Shown here: piece by piece, positions 7,715 to 29,272 of the stretch
How positions within the stretch are numbered: the stretch's first letter is position 1
Layout: every line of letters begins with the position of its first letter
Assembly: GCF_030849025.1 (NCBI RefSeq)
Contig: NZ_CP118224.1
Span: forward strand, 3,456,501-3,520,500
Direction: 5' to 3'
DNA: 64,000 nt
Source of the DNA: Oceanimonas pelagia
Lineage (GTDB): Bacteria; Pseudomonadota; Gammaproteobacteria; Enterobacterales; Aeromonadaceae
Notes under the pieces: model-generated
The model's input: only the letters and a program-made list of their open reading frames with translations
Told to the model about the DNA's origin: nothing
Databases searched by the model: none
Translations under genes and position numbers: made by a program

Positions 7715-7719
7715 TGTTC

Positions 7720-12155: not shown

Positions 12156-12168
12156 CTGTGGTGGTGTA

Positions 12169-13819: not shown

Positions 13820-14236
13820 ATGAAGCAAGCATATCAAACAAACGCAGCCCCGCAAGGCATCAGAGTAGTGAAGCGTATCCATCTGATCCAAGCCATAAAG
13901 CCCACAGATGCCGGTGTTCCGCAGCATAGCAACACTGCGGGTCCAGAGCAGTGTGCAAAGCGTGAGAGATCTGTTTTCCCAGTGCCTGGCAAGATGAAGA
14001 CCAGTGACGACGTTTTTTTCTGTGCCGTAGAGCGGGTTTTAACACTGTTTAATAAGTACCATCGCAAGAACCAAAAAAAAGTCACGAACACAGTTAAGAG
14101 CTGGTTTGAGCAGGAGGCTCTGCGTGTTGGCTGGGGAGAAGCGATCTTCTTACCTGATACTCAGACGGGCCGAAGTGCTGGATGCATGCTGCGTGTTCCG
14201 ATGAAGAAAGGATCGAGTCATGTCACCAACCACTAA
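13820..14236 (+). CDS. 138-aa protein of unknown function, first gene of restriction operon
   Basis: Not recognised. It has a clear GAGGAG ribosome site, and its 3' end overlaps the start of the next gene by 17 bases, so it is translationally coupled to the half-HsdS. The first 45 residues are polar and of low complexity; from about residue 60 there is a compact region (DDVFFCAVERVLTLFNKYHR ... VKSWFEQEALRVGWGEAIFL) that reads as helical with several aromatic residues. No membrane segment or catalytic motif is visible. Its position suggests an accessory or regulatory role for the restriction-modification complex, which is inference. Confidence 0.65.
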   Translation: MKQAYQTNAAPQGIRVVKRIHLIQAIKPTDAGVPQHSNTAGPEQCAKRERSVFPVPGKMKTSDDVFFCAVERVLTLFNKYHRKNQKKVTNTVKSWFEQEALRVGWGEAIFLPDTQTGRSAGCMLRVPMKKGSSHVTNH

Positions 14237-14858
14237 TCTCACAGCACTTGAGGATATTGCTGATATTCGAACCGGGTTTACCTTTCGGGAAAAAATTGAA
14301 GAGGTATCCGTAAGCGAAGGTACGGCTCATGTGGCTCAGATCAAGGATGTACGGGGCGTGTGGGAAGAGACGAGCTCGTCTCTGATACAAGCCCATCAGC
14401 TGCCGCTGATTCGGTGGGAAGGCAAGGATAAGGCGTTTGTGGCTCCCGGAGCTGTGTTGTTGCCTTCCAGAGGCACCAAGGGAGGATACTTTCGTGCCTC
14501 TTGTCTGGTGCCTGATGACGCTGCCTCGCTGCCCACTGTCGTGAGTAGCCAGTTTCTGGTCATCACCCCGAAAGAGGGAGTGCTACCTGAGTTTTTGTGC
14601 TGGTCGCTCAATCGTCCGGCAATGCAATACTGGCTGTCAGAAGGGGCAGGGAGCCAGGGCACCAACCTTGTGATGTTGAGTACCAAGTTGGCAAAAGAGA
14701 TAAAACTGGAGATGCCCTCTCTGGTTACTCAACAGAAAATTCTTCGCTTAAACCAGCTTTGGGAGCAGGAACAACAGCTGACCCAAGCCTTGTTAAAAAA
14801 TCGAGAAGACATGCTGCAAGGCATGTTTCAGCAACTGCTTCAGGAGAAAAATGTATGA
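14220..14858 (+). CDS. half-length HsdS-like specificity protein (single target recognition domain)
   Basis: A 212-residue protein with one HsdS-type target recognition domain (residues 8-165, ending LSTKLAKEIKLEMPSLVTQQ) followed by one long conserved helix (QKILRLNQLWEQEQQLTQALL...). Full HsdS proteins have two of each, so this is a half subunit and not simply truncated: it has its own AAAGGA ribosome site and couples to hsdM through an ATGA overlap. Half-S proteins can dimerise to read a palindrome. It could form an alternative methyltransferase specificity with HsdM or modulate the complex; this is inference. Confidence 0.8.
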   Translation: MSPTTNLTALEDIADIRTGFTFREKIEEVSVSEGTAHVAQIKDVRGVWEETSSSLIQAHQLPLIRWEGKDKAFVAPGAVLLPSRGTKGGYFRASCLVPDDAASLPTVVSSQFLVITPKEGVLPEFLCWSLNRPAMQYWLSEGAGSQGTNLVMLSTKLAKEIKLEMPSLVTQQKILRLNQLWEQEQQLTQALLKNREDMLQGMFQQLLQEKNV

Positions 14859-16378
14859 ACGACAAAATCAACCAGGAACAAATCAACAAGGCGTTGTGGA
14901 ACGCCTGCGATACCTTTCGTGGCACCATCAGTGCCGACACCTACAAGGATTTCATCCTGACCATGCTGTTCCTCAAGTACATCTCGGATGTATGGCAGGA
15001 TCACTACGATGGCTATAAGGCCGAGTATGGCGACGAGCCGGAACTCATTGAAGAGATGATGAAGAACGAGCGCTTTGTGCTGCCCCGCGACGCCAGTTTT
15101 TATGCTCTGTATGAGCACCGCCACGAGCCCGGCAACGGCGAGCGCATTGATCAGGCCCTGCACGCCATTGAGGAAGCCAACGGCACCAAGCTGAAAGATG
15201 CCGGCAAGAGTGTGTTTCAGGATATCTCCTTTAACACCGACCGGCTGGGGGAAGAAAAGCAGAAGAACAGTATTCTGCGCCATCTGCTGGAAGACTTTGC
15301 CAAACCCGAGCTGAACCTCAAGCCCAGCCGGGTGGGCGGCCTGGATGTGATCGGCAACGCCTATGAATATCTGATCAAGAACTTTGCCGCCAGCGGCGGT
15401 CAGAAGGCCGGTGAGTTCTATACCCCGCCCGAGGTGAGTGATCTAATCGCCGCTCTGCTCGACCCGCAGCCCGGCGACACCATCTGCGACCCGGCCTGCG
15501 GCTCTGGCTCGCTGCTGATGAAGTGCGGTCGTAAAATCGAGGCCAATCATAACAGCCGCCATTATGCCCTGTACGGGCAGGAAGCCATTGGCTCCACCTG
15601 GTCACTGGCCAAAATGAACATGTTTCTGCACGGCGAAGACAATCACAAAATCGAGTGGGGCGACACCATTCGCAACCCCAAGCTGCTGGACAAGAACGGC
15701 GACCTCATGCTGTTTGATGTGGTCACCGCCAACCCGCCGTTTTCTCTCGACAAATGGGGTCACGACGAAGCTGAGAACGATACATTCGGTCGTTTTCGCC
15801 GCGGTGTGCCGCCCAAAACCAAGGGTGACTACGCTTTTATTTCGCACATGATAGAAACTTTGAAACCCGGCTCTGGCCGCATGGGCGTAGTGGTGCCCCA
15901 TGGTGTGCTGTTCCGTGGCTCCAGTGAGGGCAAAATCCGCAAGCAGCTGATTGAAGAAAACCTGCTGGATGCGGTGATCGGCCTGCCGGAAAAACTGTTT
16001 TACGGCACCGGCATTCCCGCCGCCATTCTGATCTTCAAAAAGCAGAAAGTGGACGACAAGGTGCTGTTTATCGACGCCAGCCGCGAGTTCAAATCTGGCA
16101 AGAACCAGAACCAGCTCACCGAAGAAAACATCGCCAAGATCGTGGCCACCTATCAGAACGGCGATAACGTGGATAAGTACGCTTACCTCGCCAGCCTGGA
16201 AGAGATCCGCGAGAACGATTACAACCTCAATATTCCCCGCTATGTGGACACCTTCGAGGAAGAAGAAGAGATCGATCTGCTGGCGGTGCGGGCCGAGCGT
16301 GAGCAGCTCAAGGCCCAGCTGAGCGAGCTGGAAAGCGAGATGGAAAAGTATCTGAAGGAGCTGGGTTATGGTGCCTGA
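14855..16378 (+). CDS. hsdM: type I restriction-modification DNA adenine methyltransferase subunit HsdM
   Basis: A 507-residue N6-adenine methyltransferase. The N-terminal helical domain (INKALWNACDTFRGTISADT) is followed by the catalytic domain with the SAM motif DPACGSGSLL (212-221) and the catalytic motif NPPF (293-296). In type I systems two HsdM pair with one HsdS to methylate, and with HsdR to restrict. The ATG at 14855 overlaps the half-S stop; the longer upstream open frame is not coding. The C-terminal coiled region (EEEEIDLLAVRAEREQLKAQ) is typical. The next gene, hsdS, overlaps by 11 bases. Confidence 0.95.
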   Translation: MNDKINQEQINKALWNACDTFRGTISADTYKDFILTMLFLKYISDVWQDHYDGYKAEYGDEPELIEEMMKNERFVLPRDASFYALYEHRHEPGNGERIDQALHAIEEANGTKLKDAGKSVFQDISFNTDRLGEEKQKNSILRHLLEDFAKPELNLKPSRVGGLDVIGNAYEYLIKNFAASGGQKAGEFYTPPEVSDLIAALLDPQPGDTICDPACGSGSLLMKCGRKIEANHNSRHYALYGQEAIGSTWSLAKMNMFLHGEDNHKIEWGDTIRNPKLLDKNGDLMLFDVVTANPPFSLDKWGHDEAENDTFGRFRRGVPPKTKGDYAFISHMIETLKPGSGRMGVVVPHGVLFRGSSEGKIRKQLIEENLLDAVIGLPEKLFYGTGIPAAILIFKKQKVDDKVLFIDASREFKSGKNQNQLTEENIAKIVATYQNGDNVDKYAYLASLEEIRENDYNLNIPRYVDTFEEEEEIDLLAVRAEREQLKAQLSELESEMEKYLKELGYGA

Positions 16379-17567
16379 GGGTTGGGTAAAAGCAAAGCTT
16401 GGAAAATTAGTCAGCATATCTTCCGGCATCGCTCCGTCTGCACTTTCTTTATCAGAAAATGGAAAGTATCCGTATGTGAAAGTTGAGGATATGAACAACT
16501 GCTCCAAATACCAAGAGAGTAGTAGAACATACTCTGATGATGAGGTTAAGTATATCCCTAAGGGATCAGTAATATTCCCTAAAAGAGGGGCAGCAATTAT
16601 GAACAATAAAGTTCGTATTTCTGCCGTAGATCTCTACTTAGACTCAAATATGATGTCTCTTTATCCAGGGGATGAAATAGATACAGAGTTCTTATATTAC
16701 AGCCTAATCAGAGAGGAACTACATAGGATTGCAGATACATCAACAATCCCTCAAATCAATAACAAGCACATCACGCCATATACTGTGATGCTGCCTTCAC
16801 TTGCCGAACAAAAGAAAATCGCCCAAATCCTGTCTACCTGGGACCAGGCGATCACCACCACGGAGCAACTGCTGGCCAACAGCCGCCAGCAGAAAAAAGC
16901 CCTGATGCAGCAACTGCTGACCGGCAAGCAGCGCCTGCTGGATAAGGATGGGGAGAGGTTTAGTGGGGAGTGGAAAAAAGTAAAGCTTGGATCTGTTGCC
17001 AACATGAACAGCGGTGGAACACCAAAATCTACTATCGGAGAGTATTACGGCGGTGATATTCCTTGGGTTTCTATTTCAGATATGACCAAGCAAGGAAAAT
17101 GGATTGCCTCCACTGAAAAATATCTTACAACTCATGGGTTAGAGAACTCAACAGCTCGAATCTATCCGAAAAACAGTGTTCTTTATGCGATGTATGCATC
17201 AATCGGAGAATGCAGCATAGCTCAGGTACCTTTGAGTTCATCACAAGCAATTTTAGGTATAAGACCTAAAGCTGAACTTGATTTTGAATTTTTGTATTTT
17301 TTCTTGACGTCTTTGAAGGAGAGAATAAAGCTCCAAGGACAGCAAGGTACACAGTCAAATTTAAATGCGAGAATGGTTAAAGACTTTTTGTTGTACTTGC
17401 CATGCATAGAAGAACAACAAAAAATCGCCGCTGTGCTTTCCACCGCCGACCGGGAAATTGACATCCTGCAACAAAAGCTGGATGCCCTCAGACAGGAGAA
17501 AAAGGCGCTGATGCAGCAGTTGCTCACCGGTAAGCGCAGAGTCATTACCGAACAGCCGGAGGCCTGA
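16368..17567 (+). CDS. hsdS: type I restriction-modification specificity subunit HsdS
   Basis: A 399-residue full-length HsdS with two target recognition domains, about residues 5-145 and 200-345. Each is followed by a conserved helical segment ending in the repeated KALMQQLLTGK(Q/R)R. These read the two half-sites of a bipartite target. The two recognition domains are encoded by noticeably AT-rich DNA while the conserved segments are GC-rich, suggesting domain replacement. The start ATG follows AAGGAG inside the end of hsdM; the TGA overlaps the next ATG. Confidence 0.95.
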   Translation: MVPEGWVKAKLGKLVSISSGIAPSALSLSENGKYPYVKVEDMNNCSKYQESSRTYSDDEVKYIPKGSVIFPKRGAAIMNNKVRISAVDLYLDSNMMSLYPGDEIDTEFLYYSLIREELHRIADTSTIPQINNKHITPYTVMLPSLAEQKKIAQILSTWDQAITTTEQLLANSRQQKKALMQQLLTGKQRLLDKDGERFSGEWKKVKLGSVANMNSGGTPKSTIGEYYGGDIPWVSISDMTKQGKWIASTEKYLTTHGLENSTARIYPKNSVLYAMYASIGECSIAQVPLSSSQAILGIRPKAELDFEFLYFFLTSLKERIKLQGQQGTQSNLNARMVKDFLLYLPCIEEQQKIAAVLSTADREIDILQQKLDALRQEKKALMQQLLTGKRRVITEQPEA

Positions 17568-19498
17568 TGGAGCACCATGACTTCAACCCCGGCCACCTGC
17601 TGGCCGAATTGCGGGAGCTGGATGAACACCCTCGCATCGAAGCCAAGCAGGCCAGGGAAATTGGCAGCTCAATCATGCAGACAGTGTGCGCCTTTGCCAA
17701 CGAGCCCGGGCTGGGCGGTGGCTATTTGCTGCTGGGCGTAAGGGAGCCGGACGAGCAGCACGAGGAATTCTGGCTGGAAGGCGTGCAAAACCCCGATACG
17801 CTGCTGAATACCCTGCAGACCAATTGTCGTGACCAGTTTGAAACACCGGTGCCGGTCAGAGGCAAAACCGTCATCCTTGAAGGCAAGCGCCTGCTGGTGG
17901 TTTTTGTGCCCGAACTGGAGCCCGCCGCCAAACCCTGCGTATTCAAGGGGAAGTTCGACAGCAAAAACAAACGCAAAACCGGCGTCTGGCGGCGTGGGCT
18001 AAATGGTGATTATGAGTGTGGGCAACATGATCTGGAGCCGCTGATTCTGGCCAAACTGGGCAGCGGATTTGAGCGTGTGGTGCCAGACGATGCCGAATGG
18101 GATGACCTGGATCCAGAGGCCATCGCGCTTTACCGCAAACTGCGGGCTCAGGTGCGCCCCCACGCCGAAGAGCTGCAGGCCGACGATCAGGAGATGCTGC
18201 GAGCGCTGAACCTGGTTAAACGCGTTCAGAATCGCTGGGTGCCCAATATTGCAGGCCTGTTGCTGCTGGGCAAACCTCTGGCATTGCGGCGATTACTGCC
18301 TTCGGTCCGGGTCGACTATGTACGCATTCAGGGTACTCAGTGGGTGGAAGATCCCGACCAGCGATTTACCACGACACTGGATTTCCGTGAGCCACTATTG
18401 CGCCTGATCCCCAGACTGGAAGCCGCCATTCTGGATGACATGCCCCGCCACTTCCGGCTGAATGAGGGCGAAACCCAACGTTCAGATCAACCCTGGGTTC
18501 CCGGAAAGGTGATCCGTGAGGCAGTGGTGAATGCGGTGATGCATCGCGACTATCAGGTGAACCAGCCTGTGCTGGTGGTGCGCTACAGCAATCGTCTGGA
18601 AATCCGTAACGCCGGTTATTCTCTCAAGCCGGAAATGCACCTGGGTGATATGGGCTCAGTGCTGCGTAACCCTGTTGTGGCGGGCGTTTTGTACGATGTG
18701 AACTTTGCGGAAACAAAGGGCTCGGGGATCCGCACCATGCGCCGCCTGCTGGAGCAGGCCGGGCTGTCTCCTCCGGTGTTTTCCAGCCAGATCCTGGAAA
18801 ATCAGTTTACCGCCATCTACCTGCTGCATCAGTTACTGGGTGAGCAACAACTGGCATGGCTTCAACAGTTTAAACACCTTGCCCTGAGTGATGATGAGGC
18901 CAAGGCTCTGATCCTCGCCCATGAAACCGGTGCGGTTGATAATGGAGCACTGCGAGCCGTAACCGGCCTCGACACCCTGTCTGCCAGTCAGGTGCTGAGC
19001 AAACTGCATCATCAACGAAAATGTTTGGTCAAAGGCGGAGCCGGGCCCGCCACTTACTATCAACTGGCAGAATGGCAGACATTGCCATTATTCGCATCAG
19101 CTGAGCCTGTCACCACAGAAAAAACGGAGAATACGAGTGACCCCGTCACAAATACGAGTGACCTCGATGCAAATGCGAGTGACCTCGATGCAAATACGAG
19201 TGACCTCCCCGCTTTGCTTCAGTCACGTATTGCAGCACTTACACCCAAAGCCCGTAAAGACAAGCTATGGCCGGTGATCCTGTGGCTTTGTGCCATTCGG
19301 CCCTGTAAAGCTGACGAACTGGCAAGCTTGCTAAACCGCCAGATCACACACCTGAAGAACGCTCATCTGAGCCCAATGCGTGAACAACAGGGTTTACTGG
19401 AATACCTGCACCCGGAAGTTATTAACCATCCGGAGCAAGCCTACCGCACCACCGTCGCTGGCCGACGCTGGTTGCAACAACAGGGGATCACCCTTTGA
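17567..19498 (+). CDS. AlbA_2-domain / GHKL ATPase-like protein, RecG-like family, in restriction operon
   Basis: A 643-residue protein. The N-terminal Schlafen/AlbA_2-type domain (residues 15-125, with PRIEAKQAREIGSSIMQTVC) is followed by a GHKL-type ATPase half with N-box IREAVVNAVMHRDY (316-329), LEIRNAG (344-350) and KGSGIRTM. Such proteins are often annotated as ATP-dependent DNA helicase or transcriptional regulator and are frequently found inside type I operons; their role is not established. Residues about 520-547 are a (T/A)SDLDAN repeat from a 21-bp DNA repeat, followed by a winged-helix-like C-terminus. It overlaps the hsdS stop by one base, so it belongs to the same operon. Confidence 0.75.
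   Translation: MEHHDFNPGHLLAELRELDEHPRIEAKQAREIGSSIMQTVCAFANEPGLGGGYLLLGVREPDEQHEEFWLEGVQNPDTLLNTLQTNCRDQFETPVPVRGKTVILEGKRLLVVFVPELEPAAKPCVFKGKFDSKNKRKTGVWRRGLNGDYECGQHDLEPLILAKLGSGFERVVPDDAEWDDLDPEAIALYRKLRAQVRPHAEELQADDQEMLRALNLVKRVQNRWVPNIAGLLLLGKPLALRRLLPSVRVDYVRIQGTQWVEDPDQRFTTTLDFREPLLRLIPRLEAAILDDMPRHFRLNEGETQRSDQPWVPGKVIREAVVNAVMHRDYQVNQPVLVVRYSNRLEIRNAGYSLKPEMHLGDMGSVLRNPVVAGVLYDVNFAETKGSGIRTMRRLLEQAGLSPPVFSSQILENQFTAIYLLHQLLGEQQLAWLQQFKHLALSDDEAKALILAHETGAVDNGALRAVTGLDTLSASQVLSKLHHQRKCLVKGGAGPATYYQLAEWQTLPLFASAEPVTTEKTENTSDPVTNTSDLDANASDLDANTSDLPALLQSRIAALTPKARKDKLWPVILWLCAIRPCKADELASLLNRQITHLKNAHLSPMREQQGLLEYLHPEVINHPEQAYRTTVAGRRWLQQQGITL
19130..19207 (+). repeat. 21-bp in-frame tandem repeat, about 3.7 copies
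   Basis: Units start at 19130, 19151, 19172 and 19193, each opening AATACGAGTGACC (one has AATGCG). The repeat encodes a seven-residue unit in a flexible linker. Copy-number change would add or remove seven residues without shifting the frame. Confidence 0.85.
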
Positions 19499-19628
19499 TA
19501 AACAAAACAGCTTTCAAACACCGGGAATTACGGTGAGCATAGCGATGCTGAGGGGCTGATTGGTTAACAGCGCCACCGACCAATAAACATCAAACAAAAA
19601 TAACGTTAGAGCCAAGGGATACATCTGA

Positions 19629-21620
19629 ATGTTGAACTCTGAGCAAATCCATGCAGAGCTGAACAAGCTGGGCTGTGCTTTGGAGCCCGGTAAAAATAAT
19701 CCTTCCTATGCCTATGAACATTTCTTGGGCAATGGAAAATATCTTTATGTGAAACGTAAAGCCAACGGCTCGGTAGACAAGGCGCCACTGGTATTGCATC
19801 CGGATTGCCTGGCACTCAGGCCAATTATTGACCGTATCGACGGCCTTTCGGTTACCTGGCAAAAAGTCAAAAGTACCAGCTATCGCCGCTATCCCAAAGA
19901 TAACGGCGCATCACAATATGGTTATGACGCTAACGTAAGCACAGGCCAGGCTCTGTCTCAACTCGTTGCCCTGCTGACTGACTCTGCCCCCGTACGGCAG
20001 ACAAACACCGCCAGCACATACCAGACCGCTTCCAAACAAAAGGACTTACCCATGCACCCTCTGAACCAGATCCTCTTCGGCCCGCCCGGCACCGGCAAAA
20101 CCTACGCCACCACCGAAATGGCGGTTCGCATTGCTGAAGCGGAATGGTTTCAGAACATCAGCGAAACCCATGATGGTGACGCGCTGCGCGAAGCGGTTAA
20201 AGGTAAATATGACGAGCTGGTGAAGGCAAAGCGGGTTGTTTTTACCACGTTTCATCAAAGCTTTGCCTATGAAGACTTTATCGAGGGCATCCGTGCCGAG
20301 ACCGATGAGCAAAACAACGGCCTGCGCTACGAGGTCACCGATGGTATCTTTAAGCAGCTGTGCAACGATGCGGCAGTAAAGGTACAGGTTGCATCTACCG
20401 AGTCGGTATCACTGGAAGGAAAACGCATCTGGAAAATGTCGCTCGGCAATACTCTGGGTGGCGAGGAATACATCTATGAAGAGTGCGTCAAGCAGGGCTA
20501 TGCCCTGCTGGGATACGGTGACGATATCGACTTCAGTGACTGTCACAGCCGCGAAGCCGTCAAGGCAAAACTGGAAGACATTTATCAGTCCCCGGTAGCC
20601 AACAACAACTATACGCTGACCTCGGTGCATGTCTTCAAAAATCAGATGCAGCAGGGCGATCTGATTGTGGTATCCGATGGCAACCACAAGTTCCGCGCCA
20701 TTGGGCAAATTACCGGGGACTATGAGTTTCTGGAAACCGATGAACGGGTCGGTTACCAGCAACTGCGGCGAGTAAACTGGTTGCGGCAATATCAGCCCAG
20801 CCTTTCCATAGAGCATCTGTTCCTGAAAGCCCTGTCACAAATGACACTTTATGAGCTCAAGCCCACCACCATTGATCATGCCAGGCTGGAGCAACTGCTG
20901 GCACCAACAGGTGGTCAGGAGAGCGAGCACAAGCCTCATGTGCTTATCATCGATGAAATCAACCGGGGCAATATTTCCCGTATTTTTGGTGAGCTGATCA
21001 CCCTGCTGGAGCCGGACAAGCGCAAAGGCGGAGCCGATGCCCGCTCGGTGATCCTGCCTTACTCCAAAGAGCCTTTTACCGTTCCCGATAATCTTTATGT
21101 GATTGGCACCATGAACACCGCCGACAAATCACTGGCCCAGCTTGATCTGGCGCTGCGCCGTCGTTTCAGCTTTGTGGAGATGATGCCCAAACCTGAGCTG
21201 CTGAGTGATTTTACCGTTCATGGTGTGAGCCTGAAAGAGATGCTGACCGTCATTAACCAGCGGATTGAAGCACTGCTGGATGCAGAGCACCTGATCGGCC
21301 ACAGCTACTTTATGCCGCTGCTTAATATGCCAGAGACCGAGCGGGAGCAGGCCCTGGCGGATATGTTCAGGAATCGCATCCTGCCCCTGCTGCAGGAATA
21401 TTTCTTTGATGACTATCAGCGAATTGGCTGGGTGCTGAACGATCCGGCCAAACAACCGGACCACCGCTTTATCGTCACCGATGAGGCACTAAGAGACCAT
21501 CTTCCCAAGCTCGATAAACTGTTTCCGGCCGAGGTTGCAGAGCAACTACTGGACCGTCGCTACCGCATCAATGAAAAAGCCTTTGCCAGCGCCGAGGCCT
21601 ACCAGGGCATCGTAAAATGA
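19629..21620 (+). CDS. mcrB: McrB-type AAA+ GTPase subunit of a modification-dependent restriction system
   Basis: A 663-residue protein. An N-terminal domain (1-125) of unrecognised type precedes the AAA+ motor, which has Walker A GPPGTGKT (151-158), Walker B VLIIDEINRGNISRIFGELI (438-457) and the McrB signature TMNTAD (494-499). Between Walker A and B lies an insert (about 265-385) with GDLIVVSDGNHKFRAIGQIT, resembling a PUA/EVE-type modified-base reader fold. McrB uses GTP to translocate DNA and activate McrC at modified cytosines. The start follows AAGGGA; 130 bp separate it from the preceding gene, so it may have its own promoter. It overlaps mcrC by four bases. Confidence 0.9.
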   Translation: MLNSEQIHAELNKLGCALEPGKNNPSYAYEHFLGNGKYLYVKRKANGSVDKAPLVLHPDCLALRPIIDRIDGLSVTWQKVKSTSYRRYPKDNGASQYGYDANVSTGQALSQLVALLTDSAPVRQTNTASTYQTASKQKDLPMHPLNQILFGPPGTGKTYATTEMAVRIAEAEWFQNISETHDGDALREAVKGKYDELVKAKRVVFTTFHQSFAYEDFIEGIRAETDEQNNGLRYEVTDGIFKQLCNDAAVKVQVASTESVSLEGKRIWKMSLGNTLGGEEYIYEECVKQGYALLGYGDDIDFSDCHSREAVKAKLEDIYQSPVANNNYTLTSVHVFKNQMQQGDLIVVSDGNHKFRAIGQITGDYEFLETDERVGYQQLRRVNWLRQYQPSLSIEHLFLKALSQMTLYELKPTTIDHARLEQLLAPTGGQESEHKPHVLIIDEINRGNISRIFGELITLLEPDKRKGGADARSVILPYSKEPFTVPDNLYVIGTMNTADKSLAQLDLALRRRFSFVEMMPKPELLSDFTVHGVSLKEMLTVINQRIEALLDAEHLIGHSYFMPLLNMPETEREQALADMFRNRILPLLQEYFFDDYQRIGWVLNDPAKQPDHRFIVTDEALRDHLPKLDKLFPAEVAEQLLDRRYRINEKAFASAEAYQGIVK

Positions 21621-22930
21621 CGCTGGTCGTGCGCGAATACGCCACTCTGAGCTGTGAAGGGAATGGCGCCGGCATGGATGCCGGTGTGGTCTCGCCAGCC
21701 ACCTTTGACTGGCTGCTTTCGCTGCAACAGGGCTGGAAAGGCCGCGCCGAGCTACTTAAGGTGGAAGGCAAAAAACGACTGCGGTTGTGCAACCATGTGG
21801 GCTACCTGCAAAGCCCTGGTGGAGAGGCCATTGAGATCTTGCCCAAAACTGAACATGAGCAGCCCGCTGAGCCAGACCGGTTACGGCGTTTGCTGCAGCG
21901 CATGTTGCGCTCGGCGCTGGGGGTAAAGCACCGTGAAGCCGGCAATGCAGAGCTGCTGCGCTCCAGTGCTCCCCTGCATGAGTGGATAATCGGTCAGTTT
22001 TTACATGAAGTCGCCGAGCTGGTGCGCCGGGGCCTGCGCTTTGATTACCACAATGTGGAAGAGCAGTGCCGGTTTGTGCGGGGCCGGCTGGATATGAACA
22101 GGCAGCTCCGCCAGACGCCAGACAAGGCCACTCAGTTTCATGTGCGCCATGCCGAGTTCAGCCCGGAACGGATTGAAAACCGGCTGATAAAAACCGCGCT
22201 GAAAGTGGCGTTCACACTGACCCGCAGCAGTGACAACTGGCGGCTGGCCAACAGCCTGCGCCATCAGTTGCACGATATTGCTGCCCTGCACCGGCCCATG
22301 CAATATTTTAACCGCTGGGATCACGGCAAGATGATGAAGGGCTACGAGGCAGTCAAACCCTGGTGCCGGTTAATTCTGGAGCAGCTAAACCCGGATTTTC
22401 AGAAAGGGGAGCACAGGGGCATTGCCCTGCTGTTTCCGATGGAGCAGTTGTTTGAGTGCTACCTTGCCAGTTGTCTGCGTCGCCAGTTGCAACCCGGTGC
22501 CCGCCTCACGGCTCAGGCCAGCCGCCGGCACTTGCTGAAGCATGCCACCCACCCTGCCAGCGAGCCACAGGGCTGGTTTACGCTGAAACCGGATTTTCTG
22601 GTGGAGCATCATCAGGCCTCTTTTGTGCTGGACGCCAAGTGGAAACTGCTTAACCAGCACCAGGCCACCAGCGAGCACAAATACGGCATCAGGCAGGCGG
22701 ATCTCTACCAGATGTTTGCCTATGGCCATACCTACCTGAGCGGCGAAGGCCACCTGATGCTGATTTACCCGAAACACAGGGATTTTAACCAGCCATTGCC
22801 GGCATTTCATTTTGACGAGCGTTTATCGCTATGGTGTGTGCCGCTGGATTTGGATAACGGCGAGCTGGTGCCGGGAGACTGGCAGAGTGCCTTTGAATGT
22901 TTTAGCCAACCGATAACAACAAGCCCCTAA
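21617..22930 (+). CDS. mcrC: McrC nuclease subunit
   Basis: A 437-residue McrC family protein that carries the nuclease activity of McrBC. The N-terminal McrB-binding region is followed by a C-terminal PD-(D/E)xK site: D326 in LKPDFLV, then D339 and K341 in FVLDAKWK. The start overlaps the mcrB stop (ATGA), consistent with a fixed stoichiometric complex. The gene lies between mcrB and hsdR in the same direction, embedding a type IV system inside a type I operon. Confidence 0.9.
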   Translation: MTLVVREYATLSCEGNGAGMDAGVVSPATFDWLLSLQQGWKGRAELLKVEGKKRLRLCNHVGYLQSPGGEAIEILPKTEHEQPAEPDRLRRLLQRMLRSALGVKHREAGNAELLRSSAPLHEWIIGQFLHEVAELVRRGLRFDYHNVEEQCRFVRGRLDMNRQLRQTPDKATQFHVRHAEFSPERIENRLIKTALKVAFTLTRSSDNWRLANSLRHQLHDIAALHRPMQYFNRWDHGKMMKGYEAVKPWCRLILEQLNPDFQKGEHRGIALLFPMEQLFECYLASCLRRQLQPGARLTAQASRRHLLKHATHPASEPQGWFTLKPDFLVEHHQASFVLDAKWKLLNQHQATSEHKYGIRQADLYQMFAYGHTYLSGEGHLMLIYPKHRDFNQPLPAFHFDERLSLWCVPLDLDNGELVPGDWQSAFECFSQPITTSP

Positions 22931-22963
22931 CCCGGGGCCACAAGAGCAAGGGATAACAATAAT

Positions 22964-25900
22964 ATGCATCAGGCTCCCAAGTTTCAGGAAGAATACAGCG
23001 CTAAGCTGCCAGCCATGGCGCTGCTCGCCAATCTGGGCTGGTCGTTTATTAACCCGGAGCAGGCGCTGGCAGCCCGGGCCGGCAAGGCCGATGAGGTGGT
23101 GTTACGCAGTCTGCTGCGGGCGGAACTGGCCAAGCGCACTTATACCCAGGCGGGAACAGAACGGGCGCTGTCGGCCAAGGCCATCGACAATCTGGTGGCA
23201 GAGGTGTGCAGCCCGGCCCTGAACGAAGGCCTGCACACTGCCAATGAAAGGCTCTATAACCATCTGCTGTACGGCATTGCCGTCACCGAATTTGTGGATG
23301 GTAAAAAGGTCAGTCCCACCATACCGCTGATTGACTGGCACAATCCGGCCAACAACAGCTTTGTATTTACCGAAGAGTTCACCGTTACCCGTGCCGGTGG
23401 TGTAGAGAGCCGACGCCCCGATTTGGTGTGCTTTGTGAACGGCATTCCGCTGGTAGTGATTGAGGCCAAACGGCCCGATGGTCATGGCAATAAGGGCCCT
23501 ACCGTGGAGGAAGGCATTTCCCAAAGCCTGCGCAATCAGCGGCCCGATGAAATTCCCCTGTTATTTGCCTACAGCCAGCTGTTGCTGTCGATTAACGGCA
23601 ACGAAGGTCGTTATGGCACCTGCGGCACACCGAAAAAGTTCTGGGCCGCCTGGCGGGAAGAAGACATTACCGATGCAGACATGCAGGCTTTAAAGAACCG
23701 CCCCCTGTCTGCCACTCAGCTGCAAGCGCTGTTCAGCCATCGGCCTGCCAAGGATCTGGACTGGTATCAGAGTCTGATTGCCGGTGGCGAGCTGGCCATT
23801 ACCGGGCAGGATAAATTACTGATCAGCCTGCTGAGCCCGAATCGCCTGCTGGAGATGATCCGTTACTTCATTCTGTTTGATAAAAAGGCCGGCAAAATTG
23901 TGGCTCGTTATCAGCAGGTGTTTGGCATCAAGCGGCTGATTGACCGTATTCAGACCCAGCGGGCCGATGGTGGCCGGGAAGGCGGTGTGGTCTGGCACAC
24001 CACCGGCTCCGGCAAGTCGTTCACCATGGTGTTTTTAAGCCGGGCGCTGATTTTGCACGAGGCGCTGAAGCAATGCCGGCTGCTGGTGGTCACCGACAGG
24101 GTGGATCTGGAAAGCCAGCTGAGCAGAACCTTTATGATGAGCGGTGAGCTGGAAGGCAAAAAGGACAAGGTCGCTGCCATGGCGACCTCTGGAAAGCGCC
24201 TGGCCGAGCAGATTGGTCGAGGCACTGAGCGCATCATGTTTTCCCTGATCCAGAAGTTCAACAGTGCCACCAAGCGCCCGGAATGCCATAACGACAGCCC
24301 CAATATCATTGTGTTGATTGACGAAGGCCACCGCAGCCAGGGCGGGGAAAATCACATAAAAATGCGTCAGGCCCTGCCCAAGGCAGCCTTTGTGGCCTTT
24401 ACCGGCACCCCGCTGCTGCAGGATGACAAGACCACCAACAAGTTCGGCCCCATTGTGCATGCCTACACCATGCAACGGGCGGTGGAAGACGAGACGGTAA
24501 CACCGCTGCTCTATGAAGAGCGTATTCCCGACCTGGATGTGAACGAGCGGGCCATCGACAGCTGGTTTGATCGCATTACCGAAGGCCTGAGCGATCAGCA
24601 AAAGGCCGATCTCAAGCGCAAGTTCGGTAAAAAAGGCCAGGTATTCGGTGCCGATGACCGCATTCGGCTGATAGCGCTGGATATTGCCAATCACTTCGTC
24701 AAAAACATCGATGAAGGCCTGAAAGGCCAGCTGGCCTGTGACAGCAAGGCCTCGGCCATCAAGTATAAAAAGTATCTGGATGAAGCCGGGCTGTTTGAGT
24801 CAGCGGTGGTGATGAGCCCGCCCGACACCCGGGAAGGCAACACTGCCGTGGATGAGTCGGCCATGCCGGAAGTGGCCCAGTGGTGGAAGGACAACGTGGG
24901 CAGCCAGGACGAACAGGCCTACACCAAGGATGTGGTGGAGCGGTTCGACAAGGACGACAAGCTCAAGTTGCTGATTGTGGTAGACAAGCTGCTCACCGGT
25001 TTTGACGAGCCCAAAAATACCGTGCTCTATATCGACAAATCGCTGAAGCAGCACAACCTGATCCAGGCCATTGCCCGGGTTAACCGGCTGCACCCTAAAA
25101 AGAAGTTCGGCCTGCTTATCGACTATCGCGGCATTCTGGCTGAGCTGGACACCACCATTGCCAAATATCAGGATCTGGCGTCTCGCACTCAGGGCGGTTA
25201 CGACATTAACGACATTGATGGTTTGTATCAGTCCATGAGCACGGAATACAAGCGACTGCCACAGCTCTATAAACAGCTGTGGGCCATTTTTGATGGCGTG
25301 AACAACAAAAATGATATTGAGCAGCTGCGCCGGGTGCTGGTGCCCAACATGCAGGAGCGAGACGGGGAACTGGTGGATGTGCACCTCAAGGTGCGTGAAG
25401 ACTTCTATGCCGCACTCTCGGCCTTTGCCAGTTGCCTGAAGATTGCGCTGCAATCGGCCACCTTCTTTGAAGATAAAAGTTTCACTGAAGACGACCGCCG
25501 CCTCTACAAGGAAACCGTCAAACAGTTCAGCAGTCTGCGCCAACTGGTGCAGCAGGACGCGGGTGAACGCATCGACTTTGACGAATACGCCGAGCAGGTA
25601 AAAAAGCTGCTCGACAAGCATGTGGTGGGCGTGGACGTTAAAGAGCCTGATGGCGTCTATGAAGTGGGCAAAATGGGCAAGCAACAGCAGCCCCAGGACT
25701 GGACCGAAGAGAAAACCCGTAACGAGACCGACATCATCAAAACCCGGGTCACTCGCATGATTGAGCAAGAGCTGAGGGATGATCCTTATGCTCAGGAAGC
25801 GTTTTCCTGGCTGCTGCGTCAGGCCATTGAAGAAGCGGAAAAGCTCTTTGATCACCCGCTGAAGCAATACCTGCTGTTCCAGGAGTTTGAGCAGCAGGTA

Positions 25901-26236
25901 CAGACGCGCCGGTTGGATGAGCTGCCCGATGCCTTTGCGGGTAATCGTCATGCCCAGGCTTATTTTGGGGTGTTCAAGAAGACGCTGCCTGCTGTCTTTG
26001 CCATGACGGACGATCAGGTGCAGAACAAGTGGGTCAAACTGGCCTTTGAGCTGGATGACATCGTTACCGCTGCCGTGGCTGAGCACTCCATCAATCCGCA
26101 AAACATTGAGGCGGAGATCCGCAAGCAGCTGTTGCCGCGTCTGTTTAAAGAGTGCAAGGCGGTGGGCGGCGGCATGGATCAGGCCCGCAATATGGTGGAA
26201 ATGGTGGTGCAGATCACCCGGGTGGGGCTGAGCTGA
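22964..26236 (+). CDS. hsdR: type I restriction enzyme HsdR (EcoR124-like)
   Basis: A 1090-residue translocase-nuclease, full length for the family. The N-terminal nuclease has D153 and E167-x-K169 (RRPDLVCF ... VVIEAKRP). The SF2 motor follows with Walker A TTGSGKS (346-352) and DEGH (453-456), then a C-terminal helical domain that docks to HsdM. With two HsdM and HsdS it cleaves unmethylated DNA far from the recognition site. It starts 33 bp after mcrC and is followed at two bases' distance by the metalloprotease gene. It appears intact. Confidence 0.95.
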   Translation: MHQAPKFQEEYSAKLPAMALLANLGWSFINPEQALAARAGKADEVVLRSLLRAELAKRTYTQAGTERALSAKAIDNLVAEVCSPALNEGLHTANERLYNHLLYGIAVTEFVDGKKVSPTIPLIDWHNPANNSFVFTEEFTVTRAGGVESRRPDLVCFVNGIPLVVIEAKRPDGHGNKGPTVEEGISQSLRNQRPDEIPLLFAYSQLLLSINGNEGRYGTCGTPKKFWAAWREEDITDADMQALKNRPLSATQLQALFSHRPAKDLDWYQSLIAGGELAITGQDKLLISLLSPNRLLEMIRYFILFDKKAGKIVARYQQVFGIKRLIDRIQTQRADGGREGGVVWHTTGSGKSFTMVFLSRALILHEALKQCRLLVVTDRVDLESQLSRTFMMSGELEGKKDKVAAMATSGKRLAEQIGRGTERIMFSLIQKFNSATKRPECHNDSPNIIVLIDEGHRSQGGENHIKMRQALPKAAFVAFTGTPLLQDDKTTNKFGPIVHAYTMQRAVEDETVTPLLYEERIPDLDVNERAIDSWFDRITEGLSDQQKADLKRKFGKKGQVFGADDRIRLIALDIANHFVKNIDEGLKGQLACDSKASAIKYKKYLDEAGLFESAVVMSPPDTREGNTAVDESAMPEVAQWWKDNVGSQDEQAYTKDVVERFDKDDKLKLLIVVDKLLTGFDEPKNTVLYIDKSLKQHNLIQAIARVNRLHPKKKFGLLIDYRGILAELDTTIAKYQDLASRTQGGYDINDIDGLYQSMSTEYKRLPQLYKQLWAIFDGVNNKNDIEQLRRVLVPNMQERDGELVDVHLKVREDFYAALSAFASCLKIALQSATFFEDKSFTEDDRRLYKETVKQFSSLRQLVQQDAGERIDFDEYAEQVKKLLDKHVVGVDVKEPDGVYEVGKMGKQQQPQDWTEEKTRNETDIIKTRVTRMIEQELRDDPYAQEAFSWLLRQAIEEAEKLFDHPLKQYLLFQEFEQQVQTRRLDELPDAFAGNRHAQAYFGVFKKTLPAVFAMTDDQVQNKWVKLAFELDDIVTAAVAEHSINPQNIEAEIRKQLLPRLFKECKAVGGGMDQARNMVEMVVQITRVGLS

Positions 26237-26238
26237 GT

Positions 26239-26985
26239 ATGAATGTGCCTATTCATGAGCCGGGCCGCACCCTTGGCTTCTGGTACGGTGACGAACGCAT
26301 TACCTTTGAGCGGGTAAAGCGGCGGCAAGGCAGTGACAAGGTGTTGATTAAGGTGCATCCGGATTGCCGGGTGGTGGTCTCGGCACCGGAAGGCTCTCAT
26401 GATGACGCCGTGACGGCGGCGGTAAAGCAACGAGCCCGGTGGATTCATGAGCAACTGAGGGATTTTCGCCAGCAGCAGGAGCACATCACGCCGCGCCGTT
26501 ATATCAGTGGTGAAAGCCATTACTATCTGGGCAAGCAGCACCTGTTGAAGGTGGTGGTTGACCCTGATCAGCCTCAGGGAGTAAAGCTGCTGAGGGGCCG
26601 GCTGGAAGTCTCGGTGCGTGCTGCGGAAGCCGACAAGGTGAAGGCACTGCTGAATGCCTGGTACAAGACCCGGGCCAGGGAAGTGTTTAACCGCCGCCTC
26701 GATGCCCTCTTGCCCCAGACTCTGTGGGTAACCGAGCGCCCGCCCCTGCGTATTCTCACCATGCAGACCCAGTGGGGTAGCTGCTCGCCACAGGGCCGCA
26801 TTACCCTTAACCCGCACCTGGTCAAGGCCCCGCGTGAGTGCATTGATTACGTGATTTTGCATGAGCTTTGCCATTTGGCTGAGCATAACCACAGCGAACG
26901 CTTCTACCGGCTGATGGGACAGGTTATGCCCAGGTGGGAAAAGGTGAAGTCAAAACTTGATGATATGGTTTACAGGTATTTTTAG
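26239..26985 (+). CDS. YgjP-like DUF45 (M48/SprT-type) zinc metallopeptidase
   Basis: A 248-residue DUF45/YgjP protein with the zinc protease motif HELCH in VILHELCHLAEHNHSERFY and a third acidic or histidine ligand downstream. The ATG at 26239, two bases after the hsdR stop, is preferred over the longer frame that overlaps hsdR. Genes of this family are commonly the last gene of type I restriction operons; a proposed job is turnover of a restriction or accessory protein, but this is not established. Its TAG overlaps the GTG start of the next gene. Confidence 0.85.
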   Translation: MNVPIHEPGRTLGFWYGDERITFERVKRRQGSDKVLIKVHPDCRVVVSAPEGSHDDAVTAAVKQRARWIHEQLRDFRQQQEHITPRRYISGESHYYLGKQHLLKVVVDPDQPQGVKLLRGRLEVSVRAAEADKVKALLNAWYKTRAREVFNRRLDALLPQTLWVTERPPLRILTMQTQWGSCSPQGRITLNPHLVKAPRECIDYVILHELCHLAEHNHSERFYRLMGQVMPRWEKVKSKLDDMVYRYF

Positions 26986-28193
26986 TGGAAAATATTGAAG
27001 ACTTCATTCCTTATGAATTTGAAGATGACCTTATACCTTACGATGAAAGCTTGCATAGTTTTATTTTACGTCACCAACTACTGTTTCACCCTGAAATGAA
27101 ACCTGTTGGTGTTATCACTCCGAGTGGTGGCTGGAGAAAGTCTGTGTTTGTGCCCCCAAAGGCTCAGCACATATTCCATGCATTCCCAGATCATGAATTA
27201 TTGGAGGTAATTGATGATGGCACTGTAGTGACTGGTGTCCTCAATCAACTCTATGATTCTCCCATTCGCTATGTTAACCGTGTGAAAGAAGTTTTTTTTC
27301 ATGAGGGGTCTGACATAAAGAAGGATAGTGAGTTAATTAGAGTTTCTTTTTGCGAGCATTGTATTGAAGAAAGTATTTCTAAATTCGGTTATGGCTATTT
27401 TAAGACGGCTTGGACTTACAAGAATAATTGTATAAAGCATGGGGTAAATCTCAGGCAATTACCTCTAGATGGTTTTTCTAAAAACTTCAAGAGAATAAAA
27501 AGTATATTGAAAGGTAATATATCAAAATCTTTCTTTGGTAAGATGCCTGTGTATTCAACATCCCCTAGTAGGAATATAATAAATCTAGATCTAAAAGGTG
27601 TTAATACTTTTTATCCTATAAAGGTTGCAGGTTGCTCAATAGATTTGTTTCTTGAGTGGGCAACCAGAGAAGACAATGAACTTTCAGAGCAGATAAAAGA
27701 ACATATAGGGATCTCTAATATTATAAATGATAGAGTTTTAATAGCTCACCATGGCAGAGGTGAAAGGGCGGCCTTAGAAAGGATGACTTTGATGTATGAG
27801 TTTTTTCAAGGATCAAAACCCGAGTTGGTGAGGTCATTTGTTGAAGATTACAATGAAATACTAAGGATCAACATTGGACCGAGAAAGCAAGGTGTGTTGG
27901 TAGAGCTGGTTGCCAAGAAAAAAGGATTAAAGTGTAATGAATGTAAGTTTTCTCACTGTTACATGAAGGCAGTTGATAGTTATGATTTAATTGATAACAA
28001 AAAGGTAGATCTTCCTTTTATAATGAGGAATTCATATACTGCTGCACGTATTGGATTTCAAGGTCTTATATTTCAATCGACGGGTGATAATTTATGGAGC
28101 CCCCTTAAACTATGCTCTGAGTTCAAGGGGGGCAACACTTATATGGCTGTAGAAGTTGAACCTCCAATGAATAAGATGATGATGTATAAATAG
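26985..28193 (+). CDS. second, divergent TniQ-family protein near the distal end
   Basis: A 402-residue protein with a TniQ-like N-terminus (PYDESLHSFILRHQLLF) and a CCCH zinc knuckle at C123, C126, C149 and H152 with the family-like spacing and an aromatic stretch between (GYGYFKTAWTY). A second possible zinc cluster is at C317, C320, H324 and C325. It is clearly different from the TnsD at 12169: shorter, without the TnsD-type C-terminus, and strongly AT-rich like tnsABC. Starts at GTG overlapping the previous stop. It may bring TnsC to a different target class. TniQ membership is judged by motif only. Confidence 0.65.
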   Translation: MENIEDFIPYEFEDDLIPYDESLHSFILRHQLLFHPEMKPVGVITPSGGWRKSVFVPPKAQHIFHAFPDHELLEVIDDGTVVTGVLNQLYDSPIRYVNRVKEVFFHEGSDIKKDSELIRVSFCEHCIEESISKFGYGYFKTAWTYKNNCIKHGVNLRQLPLDGFSKNFKRIKSILKGNISKSFFGKMPVYSTSPSRNIINLDLKGVNTFYPIKVAGCSIDLFLEWATREDNELSEQIKEHIGISNIINDRVLIAHHGRGERAALERMTLMYEFFQGSKPELVRSFVEDYNEILRINIGPRKQGVLVELVAKKKGLKCNECKFSHCYMKAVDSYDLIDNKKVDLPFIMRNSYTAARIGFQGLIFQSTGDNLWSPLKLCSEFKGGNTYMAVEVEPPMNKMMMYK

Positions 28194-28216
28194 TATGGGT
28201 TTTCATTCGTTGAGCC

Positions 28217-28777
28217 CTAATGGTTTTTTTCAAGCAGTTTATTTATTGCTTTTATGTGACCTAGTAGACGGTTTTTTTCGTCTGTTGACTTTATGTATTC
28301 CGATTCTATTCTCTTTTTCATCTGAGGGAGAGTTTTAATTAGGCCTTTGTAGCACTCTAACTCTCCTATTGAGAAGGCGATCTTTGAAGTAAGATCATCT
28401 AATATAGATTTTAAATATTTCTCTTCTTCACTCTTGTTGTGTACACCATCTTTAATTTTTATATTTCTACTATCTGTGGTGGAAGTGTTAAATATAGGGC
28501 TACTAATCAAAACTAAGTTTGTCGTTTCAGGGAAATTGAGTAGATGATAGACCTGGTTTCGATTCAGCCTTACAGTATCATATTTTACCCAACCAATCCT
28601 AAGCATGCGACGAACTTGAGAATAAATATACTTACGTATTTGCACTAAGCTAAAAGGACATCCATCTAGTCTTGCCGCATATTCATTCCGTAGCTCCCGA
28701 ATGGTGAATTCTCTAAGGTGCTGCTGCTGAAGGATATCGTACAAAGTGCGATCAAAATTAAAGTGGTTGGGTTTCAT
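28217..28777 (-). CDS. winged-helix / coiled-coil protein of unknown function
   Basis: A 186-residue protein convergent with the second tniQ. The first 85 residues (FDRTLYDILQQQHLREFTIRE ... QIRKYIYSQVRRMLRIGWVKYD) read as a winged helix-turn-helix DNA-binding domain. Residues 110-186 are highly charged and heptad-like (KYLKSILDDLTSKIAFS ... RIESEYIKSTDEKNRLLGHI), suggesting a coiled-coil dimer. The ATG at 28777 follows an AGGGGG ribosome site; a longer frame to 28846 would cross the operator. AT-rich. It could be a transposition regulator or target-binding partner; no family was recognised. Confidence 0.6.
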   Translation of the reverse strand: MKPNHFNFDRTLYDILQQQHLREFTIRELRNEYAARLDGCPFSLVQIRKYIYSQVRRMLRIGWVKYDTVRLNRNQVYHLLNFPETTNLVLISSPIFNTSTTDSRNIKIKDGVHNKSEEEKYLKSILDDLTSKIAFSIGELECYKGLIKTLPQMKKRIESEYIKSTDEKNRLLGHIKAINKLLEKNH

Positions 28778-28814
28778 TAAGAGCCCCCTAATCCTGGATA
28801 ATTGAAAAATTTTG

Positions 28815-28828
28815 CGGATTATAATCCG
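28815..28828. promoter_or_regulatory. 14-bp perfect palindrome, probable XRE operator
   Basis: CGGATTATAATCCG is a perfect palindrome in the 106-bp gap between the divergent genes at 28777 and 28884. Its centre includes TATAAT, so it may overlap a -10 element. Binding by the adjacent XRE protein would control both genes. Confidence 0.6.
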
Positions 28829-28883
28829 TGGCTTCGGGGTCTGCAAACACTGGATATTGCCGCCTTATGTAAAAGGAGGCGGT

Positions 28884-29108
28884 ATGCAGGAACTGGCGAG
28901 AGCGCTGGGGACAAAGATCCGTGAGCAGAGAAAGGCCAAGGGGTTGTCACAGGACCGCTTTGCTCTGATGTGTGGTGTAGACAGGAGCTATATGGGGCGC
29001 ATTGAACGGGGGGAGGTTAACATTACAGTAGAAAAACTGTATCAGCTTGCTCAGACGCTGGAGTGTGATCCTGCTTCATTACTACCTAAACTGGCAGAGT
29101 CACAGTAG
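28884..29108 (+). CDS. small XRE-family helix-turn-helix regulator
   Basis: A 74-residue protein made of a single HTH_3 domain: LGTKIREQRKAKGLSQDRFA ... GVDRSYMGRIERGEVN ... LYQLAQTLECDPASLLP. It has the size and shape of restriction-modification controller (C) proteins and of Xre regulators found in other Tn7-like elements. The ATG has an AAAGGAGG ribosome site. It lies immediately inside the distal transposon end and is divergent from the winged-helix gene, with a palindrome between. It probably controls itself and the neighbour; control of the restriction genes is possible. Confidence 0.85.
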   Translation: MQELARALGTKIREQRKAKGLSQDRFALMCGVDRSYMGRIERGEVNITVEKLYQLAQTLECDPASLLPKLAESQ

Positions 29109-29160
29109 ATTACAGAACTACCACTTAAAAATATAATATATTTCAGTGGCTTATGTATTA

Positions 29161-29219
29161 GTGTGCAAACTTTATTGTCACTTTCGTCATTAGTGTACAA
29201 ACTTTATTGTCAGTTCACA
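29161..29219 (-). repeat. right (distal) transposon end with two TnsB-type sites
   Basis: Read inward from 29219 the end is TGTGAACT followed by GACAATAAAGTTTGTACAC (29211-29193). A second site with one change is at 29179-29161. Only two clear sites are present against three at the other end. An AT-rich imperfect inverted repeat (CCACT ... AGTGG, 29121-29149) sits just inside. Confidence 0.92.
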
Positions 29220-29224
29220 TCTGA
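29220..29224. repeat. target site duplication, right copy (TCTGA)
   Basis: Directly follows the terminal base of the element at 29219 and matches 7631-7635. Confidence 0.9.
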
Positions 29225-29225
29225 C

Positions 29226-29250
29226 TGTGTACTGACAATAAAGTTTGTAC
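29226..29250 (+). repeat. orphan Tn7-like end remnant outside the element
   Basis: These 25 bases are identical to the first 25 bases of the left end (7636-7660), in the same orientation, and begin one base after the right target duplication. No transposition gene follows. It is most simply the surviving terminus of an earlier element inserted at the same yhiN site. Confidence 0.88.
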
Positions 29251-29272
29251 ATTATCGATAACCGGTCGGTTG

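Follow-up and report, generated by a model that had tools for sequence, protein, structure and literature searches.

A second TniQ-family protein as the candidate plasmid-pathway selector of a yhiN-targeting Tn7-like transposon in Oceanimonas pelagia

Why does a Tn7-like transposon that encodes a full-length TnsD carry a second TniQ-family gene at its distal end, and what would that gene select? The question is raised by a 64,000-nucleotide stretch of the Oceanimonas pelagia genome (contig NZ_CP118224.1, positions 3,456,501 to 3,520,500; hereafter the window), in which a Tn7-like element spans 7636–29219, is flanked by the 5-bp target site duplication (TSD) TCTGA and is inserted at the stop codon of yhiN. 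An earlier note on this DNA had suspected a possible alternative targeting module around a 402-codon gene near the right end, here called tniQ2. Judging from its homology, core status, swapping between elements and plasmid insertion positions, TniQ2 is most likely that module. On the basis of sequence comparisons with other records (L numbers) and genomes (G numbers), we consider it probable, although well short of certain, that TniQ2 is the selector of a plasmid pathway and docks on DNA-bound partition proteins, with TnsD serving yhiN.

The 402-codon open reading frame (ORF) is present, and sequence comparison identifies its product as a true TniQ homologue, which is clear only at the family level. 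A TniQ profile search of 26985–28193, the check that the earlier note had proposed, gave the window protein alone an E value of 0.23 against Pfam TniQ (PF06527), with 12.5 of the 27 bits of the gathering score. Among 16 aligned TniQ2 members, which comprise the window protein and relatives from plasmids and genomes, all 16 matched at E ≤ 1 and nine at E ≤ 1e-3 (best, 9.9e-6), and 0/16 reached the gathering score (best, 26.7 bits). The PADLOC model for TniQ of type I-F CRISPR-associated transposons (CAST I-F) matched 16/16 members at E ≤ 0.1 (best, 1.6e-7), and a profile-profile alignment (hhalign) of TniQ2 with the TnsD proteins that these elements encode covered residues 17–161 (probability 95.5, E 1.6e-8). 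Single-sequence searches with TniQ2 returned nothing from NCBIfam or the PDB; the best match to a solved structure, the zinc region of Tn7 TnsD, had an E value of 0.024 and is not significant alone. Nearly all TniQ2 rows among the matches listed were annotated as hypothetical proteins, and one record read 'TniQ family protein'.

The residues described in the earlier note were borne out by the alignment. The zinc motif CxxC...CxxH (C123, C126, C149, H152) is invariant in 16/16 members, as is C217, and the extra cysteine cluster, a second CxxC (C317, C320), is present in most of them. The TnsD C-terminus (PF15978) was matched by the product of 12148–13581 and not by the 402-residue protein, whose C-terminal half differs between alleles. 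No TnsE family occurred among the Pfam matches of the window TniQ2 and its relatives, and the identification of TniQ2 as TnsE was rejected for lack of such a match.

TniQ2 is a core gene of a transposon clade, not cargo. TnsB was detected at E ≤ 1e-30 in 48 of 394 genomes of the order, of which 11 had a TnsB at least 35% identical to that of the window (the clade), the remaining 37 being at most 33% identical. A TniQ2-type match, defined as at least 35 bits to the 16-member profile, extending past the TniQ core, in a frame of up to 409 codons (split in two in G529), was found in 11/11 clade genomes and 0/37 other TnsB-positive genomes. The scores of the clade genomes are partly so by construction, because several profile members come from them; G553, G604, G647, G705, G529, and G790 are outside the profile, and the gene of G553, missed at first, was detected by the larger 16-member profile. 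Weaker matches (≤31.5 bits) in 12 of the 37 non-clade genomes were confined to the first 156 of 346 profile positions, nine in TnsD-sized frames (502–551 codons) and three in frames of 303–339. YhiN lies beside tnsA in 10 of the 11 clade genomes in the DNA fetched, and the contig of G731 ends before that point. In G529 the tns genes are broken and tniQ2 is in two pieces. Since tniQ2 and tnsABC are on different contigs, near contig ends, in G666 and G790, and 86 kb apart on the same contig in G213, membership of the same element is not shown in these three. The earlier note had taken both tniQ2 and its convergent neighbour for backbone genes. The AT-richness behind this view is confirmed, with a G+C content of 36–40% at 27–29 kb and 38–41% at 8–12 kb (tnsABC), unlike the 48–57% at 13–27 kb (cargo). 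Core status holds for tniQ2, and the neighbour is better seen as part of a cassette that also occurs without tns genes nearby.

Beyond the order, TniQ2 was scarce: in a class-wide sample of 369 genomes it occurred in only two, both of the same order. Four scans of viral contigs found no relative; in genome contigs, a single-protein query yielded 0 relatives and a three-sequence alignment query two. In E. coli, one tnsB lineage of this kind was present in 700 of 5426 complete genomes (677 chromosomal and 49 plasmid places) and the tniQ2 of that lineage in 683 of 5426 (672 chromosomal and 49 plasmid places), and a blastn search with 26985–29230 gave no match in E. coli genomes. The gene order in L005 and L047 is tnsA-B-C-D-tniQ2. 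No tniQ2 was found in the 42 kb fetched for L083 or the 30 kb for L101, and L051 is decayed; none of these was counted as a presence.

TniQ2 is also a swappable cassette. A sister element of the same genus, G044, shares yhiN with the window element and is close to it in TnsB (90%), TnsC (92%), TnsD (95%), and HsdR (97%), while the two TniQ2 proteins are 27% identical over 80 residues only. DNA similarity to G044 ends at 26965 and resumes at 28882, so the exchange took in tniQ2 together with its neighbour. G604 provides another example when compared with G731 and L003, with identities of 90–91% in TnsB, 80–86% in TnsD, and 25–28% in TniQ2. Across 105 pairs from 15 elements, the correlation with TnsB identity was 0.92 for TnsC, 0.79 for TnsD, and 0.11 for TniQ2 (rho), values that are indicative because alignments are rough at such distance and pairs are not independent. 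The nearest relatives of the window TniQ2 are those of G731 (35%) and then of L003 (32%), an element of centromere type. Exchange between near-identical elements is as expected of a specificity cassette.

To which sites the relatives had moved was read from plasmids. The left end of the element was located in 16 clade plasmid records, chosen manually from rankings by similarity in TnsB or TniQ2 (L096, whose left end was not located, and L051 are not among them). L110 holds the same insertion as L003 (600/600 flank bases), L101 has the last 40 flank bases of L006, and the distinct plasmid junctions number 14. Half of these (L003, L098, L004, L112, L100, L099, and L111) lie inside partition centromere arrays of parS or sopC type, adjoining parA-parB genes except in L098. 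The L003 site, in an IncFIB plasmid, consists of 86-bp repeats containing TGGGACCACGGTCCCA directly after sopA-sopB. The replicons are IncHI1B for L004 and L112, IncHI1B/IncY for L100, and IncHI2A for L099 and L111; L098 occupies the array found in plasmids of the L004 type, viewed from the trhC side. In four whole plasmids (212–455 kb), the motif GGCGATTAAGGGGGTTAAAT occurred in 10, 11, 20, and 9 copies at up to three mismatches, all on one strand. The copies flank the element on either side, none being more than about 4 kb from its ends, and the reversed control gave 0. The sopC palindrome had three copies beside the L003 insertion and none elsewhere in the plasmid, with one control match per strand. 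The array of L099, with a period of ~249 bp, was unflagged by Tandem Repeats Finder and was recognised through its motif copies. TSDs at array insertions were CGGGA (L003), ATTAA (L004), TTAAC (L098), ACATA (L099), and TTAAG (L100).

All seven array junctions lie 60–64 bp from the nearest motif edge. In the L004 type, the distance from motif start to left end was 63 bp in L004 and L112, 64 bp in L100 and L111, and 62 bp in L099, in one orientation; in the L003 type it was 61 bp from the palindrome in L003 and 60 bp, on the other strand, in L098. Outside the arrays, a perfect palindrome with 9-bp arms begins 58 bp from the left end in L005 (IncHI2); when 20,000 positions were drawn at random from the fetched plasmid DNA, 11 of them, counting L005, had such a palindrome in the corresponding interval. 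No clear motif was common to the non-array sites (IncC, IncHI1A/2A, Alteromonas, Proteus), and no motif was found at the sites of L047 and L049.

Some of these other sites were used more than once. L048 and L006/L101 have one IncHI site in common. At one IncC site, two different Tn7-like elements (L046, 19068; L097, 7628) share an orientation and are separated by 4 bp, so this site is recurrent as well; a palindrome, TTACCGTAATTATGATAATTACGGTAA, lies nearby. Further decayed Tn7-like end repeats stand beside the IncHI2A insertion site of L006 (22688–22830), which suggests repeated insertions at that place.

The same element can be found at both kinds of site. An E. coli chromosome (L082) also has the L004 element, located at yhiN, with 100% TnsB identity and the same TniQ2 accession. 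For strain J53, a pco/sil Tn7-type element is described as having left an IncHI2 plasmid for the gap between yhiN and yhiM (PMC8417528), and a J53 record carries an L005-type tniQ2. None of the elements with a short TnsD (frames of 310–374 aa; L006, L048, L083, and L084) is at yhiN, as expected if TnsD serves yhiN only. In E. coli chromosomes, L083 (18946) and L084 (18947) lie next to or within genes other than yhiN, namely a TolC-family pseudogene and ycgH.

The comparisons show that TniQ2 is homologous to TniQ, belongs to the core genes and is swapped, and they show where the plasmid insertions lie and at what spacing; from this we propose the following scheme. TnsD, a full-length TniQ protein with the TnsD C-terminus, would direct the element to the 3' end of yhiN, and TniQ2, with the TniQ core and zinc site and no TnsD-like C-terminus, would be the selector of a plasmid pathway that puts the tnsA end ~60 bp from a plasmid-borne protein-binding site. 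That site would be the repeated centromere motif in half of the distinct junctions and, with other alleles, different plasmid sites, of which some are used repeatedly. In the likeliest mechanism, TniQ2 would bridge TnsC to a motif-bound partition protein of ParB/SopB type; in CAST elements, TniQ bridges TnsC to Cascade. We infer that TniQ2, rather than TnsD, makes the plasmid insertions, that it docks on the bound protein and that the window allele does likewise. A wider version is possible and held more tentatively: yhiN-type Tn7-like transposons could be 'centromere hunters' whose quickly swapped TniQ2 proteins sense ParB, SopB, or other centromere- or operator-bound proteins on plasmids and direct insertion to a fixed distance of ~60 bp, with each allele tuned to a class of plasmid segregation or operator complex.

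Several points weigh against this proposal. Seven of the 14 junctions are outside centromere arrays, six of them without a clear motif at ~60 bp. L004 and L112 may be a single insertion altered by array recombination, and L110–L112 were added once the centromere lead had been noticed. In arrays with 52–54-bp units, the period could account for the spacing. For elements that have both TnsD and TniQ2, nothing separates the two as cause, and the class of the motif-binding protein is deduced from neighbouring parA/parB and sopA/sopB genes. No plasmid copy of the window's own tniQ2 allele was found, and none is known for that of G731. An AlphaFold2 model of TniQ2 built from three sequences was unusable (predicted local distance difference test score, 33).

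How far other explanations account for the same data differs. TniQ2 might be a true second selector that binds the centromere motif DNA itself, through its variable C-terminal half and second cysteine cluster, with no need of a partition protein. The fixed spacing and orientation of the L004-type junctions relative to the motif would suit such binding, as would the variability of the C-terminal half between alleles, but Pfam recognised no DNA-binding domain in the 16 members, and L003 and L098 are the same element on two plasmids of one strain, next to motifs without evident similarity. One element that used two unlike motifs at the same spacing favours docking on a bound complex, and we regard direct DNA binding as unlikely, if deserving of serious weight. 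We think it distinctly unlikely that TnsD alone serves both yhiN and the plasmid sites, TniQ2 being a regulator or relic: TnsD is present in the centromere-located elements and the tnsA end is target-proximal at both kinds of site, but the tniQ2 frame is open over at least 334 codons in 10/11 clade genomes (up to the contig end in G647; split in G529), and the short-TnsD elements are away from yhiN.

It also appears very improbable that there is no selector and that the centromere insertions reflect DNA structure or tolerance of dispensable repeats. Arrays are non-coding and redundant, but they make up ~0.1–0.5% of the plasmids (lengths by eye), and at the largest share the chance of at least five of 14 junctions falling in them is 6.6e-9 under a uniform null applied post hoc; seven of 14 were finally seen. 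The 60–64 bp spacing also argues against tolerance. L099 and L111 lie in different copies of IncHI2A arrays with a period of ~249 bp (the two motif copies of L111 are 249 bp apart), and the period therefore does not impose the spacing there. Five non-clade Tn7-like plasmid insertions, a small control set in which the left end was taken as 100 bp before tnsA and not located, had parA/parB annotated in 0/5 stretches and no left-flank repeat unit >20 bp; three had short repeats (11–20 bp units), and one was near a ribbon-helix-helix/ParE-type toxin-antitoxin pair (RelE/ParE-family toxin). The earlier note had favoured yet another explanation, namely that the target is read by the winged-helix protein next to TniQ2, as its partner. 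The two genes adjoin in the window and also in G044, where the neighbour is truncated and tniQ2 intact; the cassette to which the neighbour belongs occurs elsewhere without tns genes, and scans of the other stretches with tniQ2, some of which are cut by contig ends, found no relative of it. We find this explanation hardly credible and retain the proposal that TniQ2 docks on bound partition proteins.

The neighbour itself is a convergent ORF of 209 codons (28217–28846, minus strand) with a likely start at 28777, giving 186 aa. Its description as a winged-helix/coiled-coil protein was not confirmed: Pfam gave nothing convincing, and PADLOC had no match. Relatives occurred in 21 plasmid records, and in the three examined (L043, L044, and L045) the gene has a small divergent Xre gene on one side and a DEAD/DEAH helicase gene downstream; the 24–25 kb fetched for each contain no tns genes. 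These cassettes, on Pseudomonas, Stenotrophomonas, and Enterobacter plasmids, lie at 11675–13985 (L043), 11675–13976 (L044), and 11625–13916 (L045) and encode a ~190-aa protein; the L043 helicase resembles PbeA (PADLOC). In L045, TIR and cyclic-oligonucleotide-based antiphage signalling (CBASS) genes bear annotations similar to those in the L004 element. The window lacks the helicase, and G044 retains no more than a C-terminal part of the 186-aa protein. Given its occurrence without tns genes, its truncation in G044 and the lack of relatives in the other stretches scanned (some cut by contig ends), the pair is best seen as a separate cassette. The Xre regulator was correctly recognised (ORF 28812–29108, likely start ATG 28884; Pfam HTH_3 E 2.5e-15). 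Xre-type genes, unmatched by the window's Xre, follow tniQ2 by annotation in L005 and L097, and Xre control is therefore possible.

Table 1. Features of the Tn7-like element and its attachment site in the window.
Feature	Position	Strand	Evidence
yhiN-type flavoprotein gene (attachment gene)	6463–7635	+	ORF; homologues beside same transposon elsewhere; yhiN annotation in E. coli L082
TSD TCTGA, left copy	7631–7635		
Left end, TnsB-type repeats at 7643 and 7695, degenerate one at 7663	7636–7715	+	
tnsA	7758–8579	+	Pfam TnsA N-terminal, E 3.3e-21
tnsB	8551–10716	+	phmmer to Tn7 TnsB 7pik, E 5.4e-70
tnsC	10713–12155	+	Pfam AAA_22 3.6e-18, TniB 9.3e-12
tnsD, first TniQ (putative yhiN pathway)	12148–13581	+	Pfam TniQ 7.2e-18, TnsD 4.5e-19
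Cargo: probable type I restriction-modification genes with hsdR, YgjP-type metallopeptidase gene	13820–26985	+	ORFs; YgjP E 1.5e-60; HsdR homologue annotated in L003
Block replaced relative to sister element G044	26966–28881		blastn (E 1e-5) found no similarity inside the block; flanks are homologous, 92% on the left and 87% on the right
tniQ2, second TniQ-family protein, 402 aa, proposed plasmid-pathway selector	26985–28193	+	
186-aa protein, part of separate Xre cassette, not considered a targeting part	28217–28777	-	
Xre-type regulator, divergent from 186-aa gene	28884–29108	+	Pfam HTH_3 2.5e-15 over 28812–29105
Right end, two inverted TnsB-type repeats	29157–29219	-	
TSD TCTGA, right copy	29220–29224		

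The window element is a complete Tn7-like transposon of the yhiN-targeting, Tn6230-like kind, with tnsABCD, a site downstream of yhiN, a 5-bp TSD and inverted end repeats (Table 1). For this assignment, the E. coli element at yhiN (L082) was compared directly, and the name Tn6230 was given by attachment gene and description. Five copies of the end repeat are present in the window, four within the element and one just beyond its right end. A left-end-like sequence (29226–29254) stands in direct orientation immediately after the right TSD copy, outside the element, and was probably left by a previous insertion into this attachment site. The window TnsB had no Pfam match at E 1, despite its E value of 5e-70 to the solved Tn7 TnsB. 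The cargo profile search was confined to genes beyond 22930. Compared with G044, the cargo at 16363–22977 is mostly without DNA similarity, the DNA on both sides being 88–92% identical; this stretch may contain restriction specificity genes.

Tn7-like loci with two TniQ proteins are already known. Faure et al. 2023 (PMC10293859) describe dual loci with a full-length TnsD and a shorter TniQ, for which direct and indirect targeting are proposed, with in-trans selectors for the short TniQs, and the present element resembles them in having one of each. Their survey used Pfam models with gathering cut-offs, which 0/16 TniQ2 members reached here, and they infer in-situ duplication, whereas TniQ2 is very distant from TnsD and is swapped. 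The main text of PMC10293859 contains none of the terms yhiN, Tn6230, partition, and centromere. Tn6230 is listed as a yhiN-targeting Tn7-like element whose 'molecular details are unknown' (PMC11406308, Table 1). It is likened to the present element by its attachment gene and Tn7-like character; what PMC11406308 gives on Tn6230 includes no second selector or plasmid pathway, and a candidate for both is offered here.

Other known systems share single features with this one. In the Tn5053 family of 'res site hunters', as presented in PMC11406308, TniQ targets a site on plasmids to which a plasmid-encoded protein binds. In the relatives studied here, insertions lie next to putative protein-binding sites of plasmids, and a dependence on the bound protein is predicted; in Tn5053, however, the site is a resolvase res site and the TniQ is the only one, while here the sites are of partition type and the TniQ is a second one beside TnsD and TnsA. 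TniQ2 resembles CAST I-F TniQ in its PADLOC model matches and as a short TniQ with a proposed adaptor role, but no cas partner is known here (no cas/CRISPR search was made), and the proposed partner would be encoded by the target plasmid. In Tn7, tnsE occupies the fifth slot after tnsD (PMC10293859). TniQ2 is comparable as a fifth core gene, after tnsD in L005 and L047, with a proposed plasmid pathway, but no sequence relation to TnsE was seen, and TnsE is described as recognising replication-associated structures, not a sequence motif (PMC11406308). In a partial coverage of the literature, we found no description of a second selector of the yhiN element or of centromere targeting. As far as these searches show, the hidden family, its swapping and the centromere-spaced insertions have not been described, the dual-TniQ kind being already known.

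The targeting of the yhiN element is given as unknown in PMC11406308, although one of its tnsB lineages is present in 700 of 5426 E. coli genomes, and its relatives on conjugative plasmids bear genes for defence and metal resistance. A survey based on gathering scores can miss a whole selector family. If the proposal is true, reading the partition complex would amount to a general recognition of plasmids, not of one sequence, and would explain the arrival of these elements on IncHI, IncF, and perhaps IncC plasmids, and their spread. It would also represent a new protein-guided mode of Tn7-like targeting.

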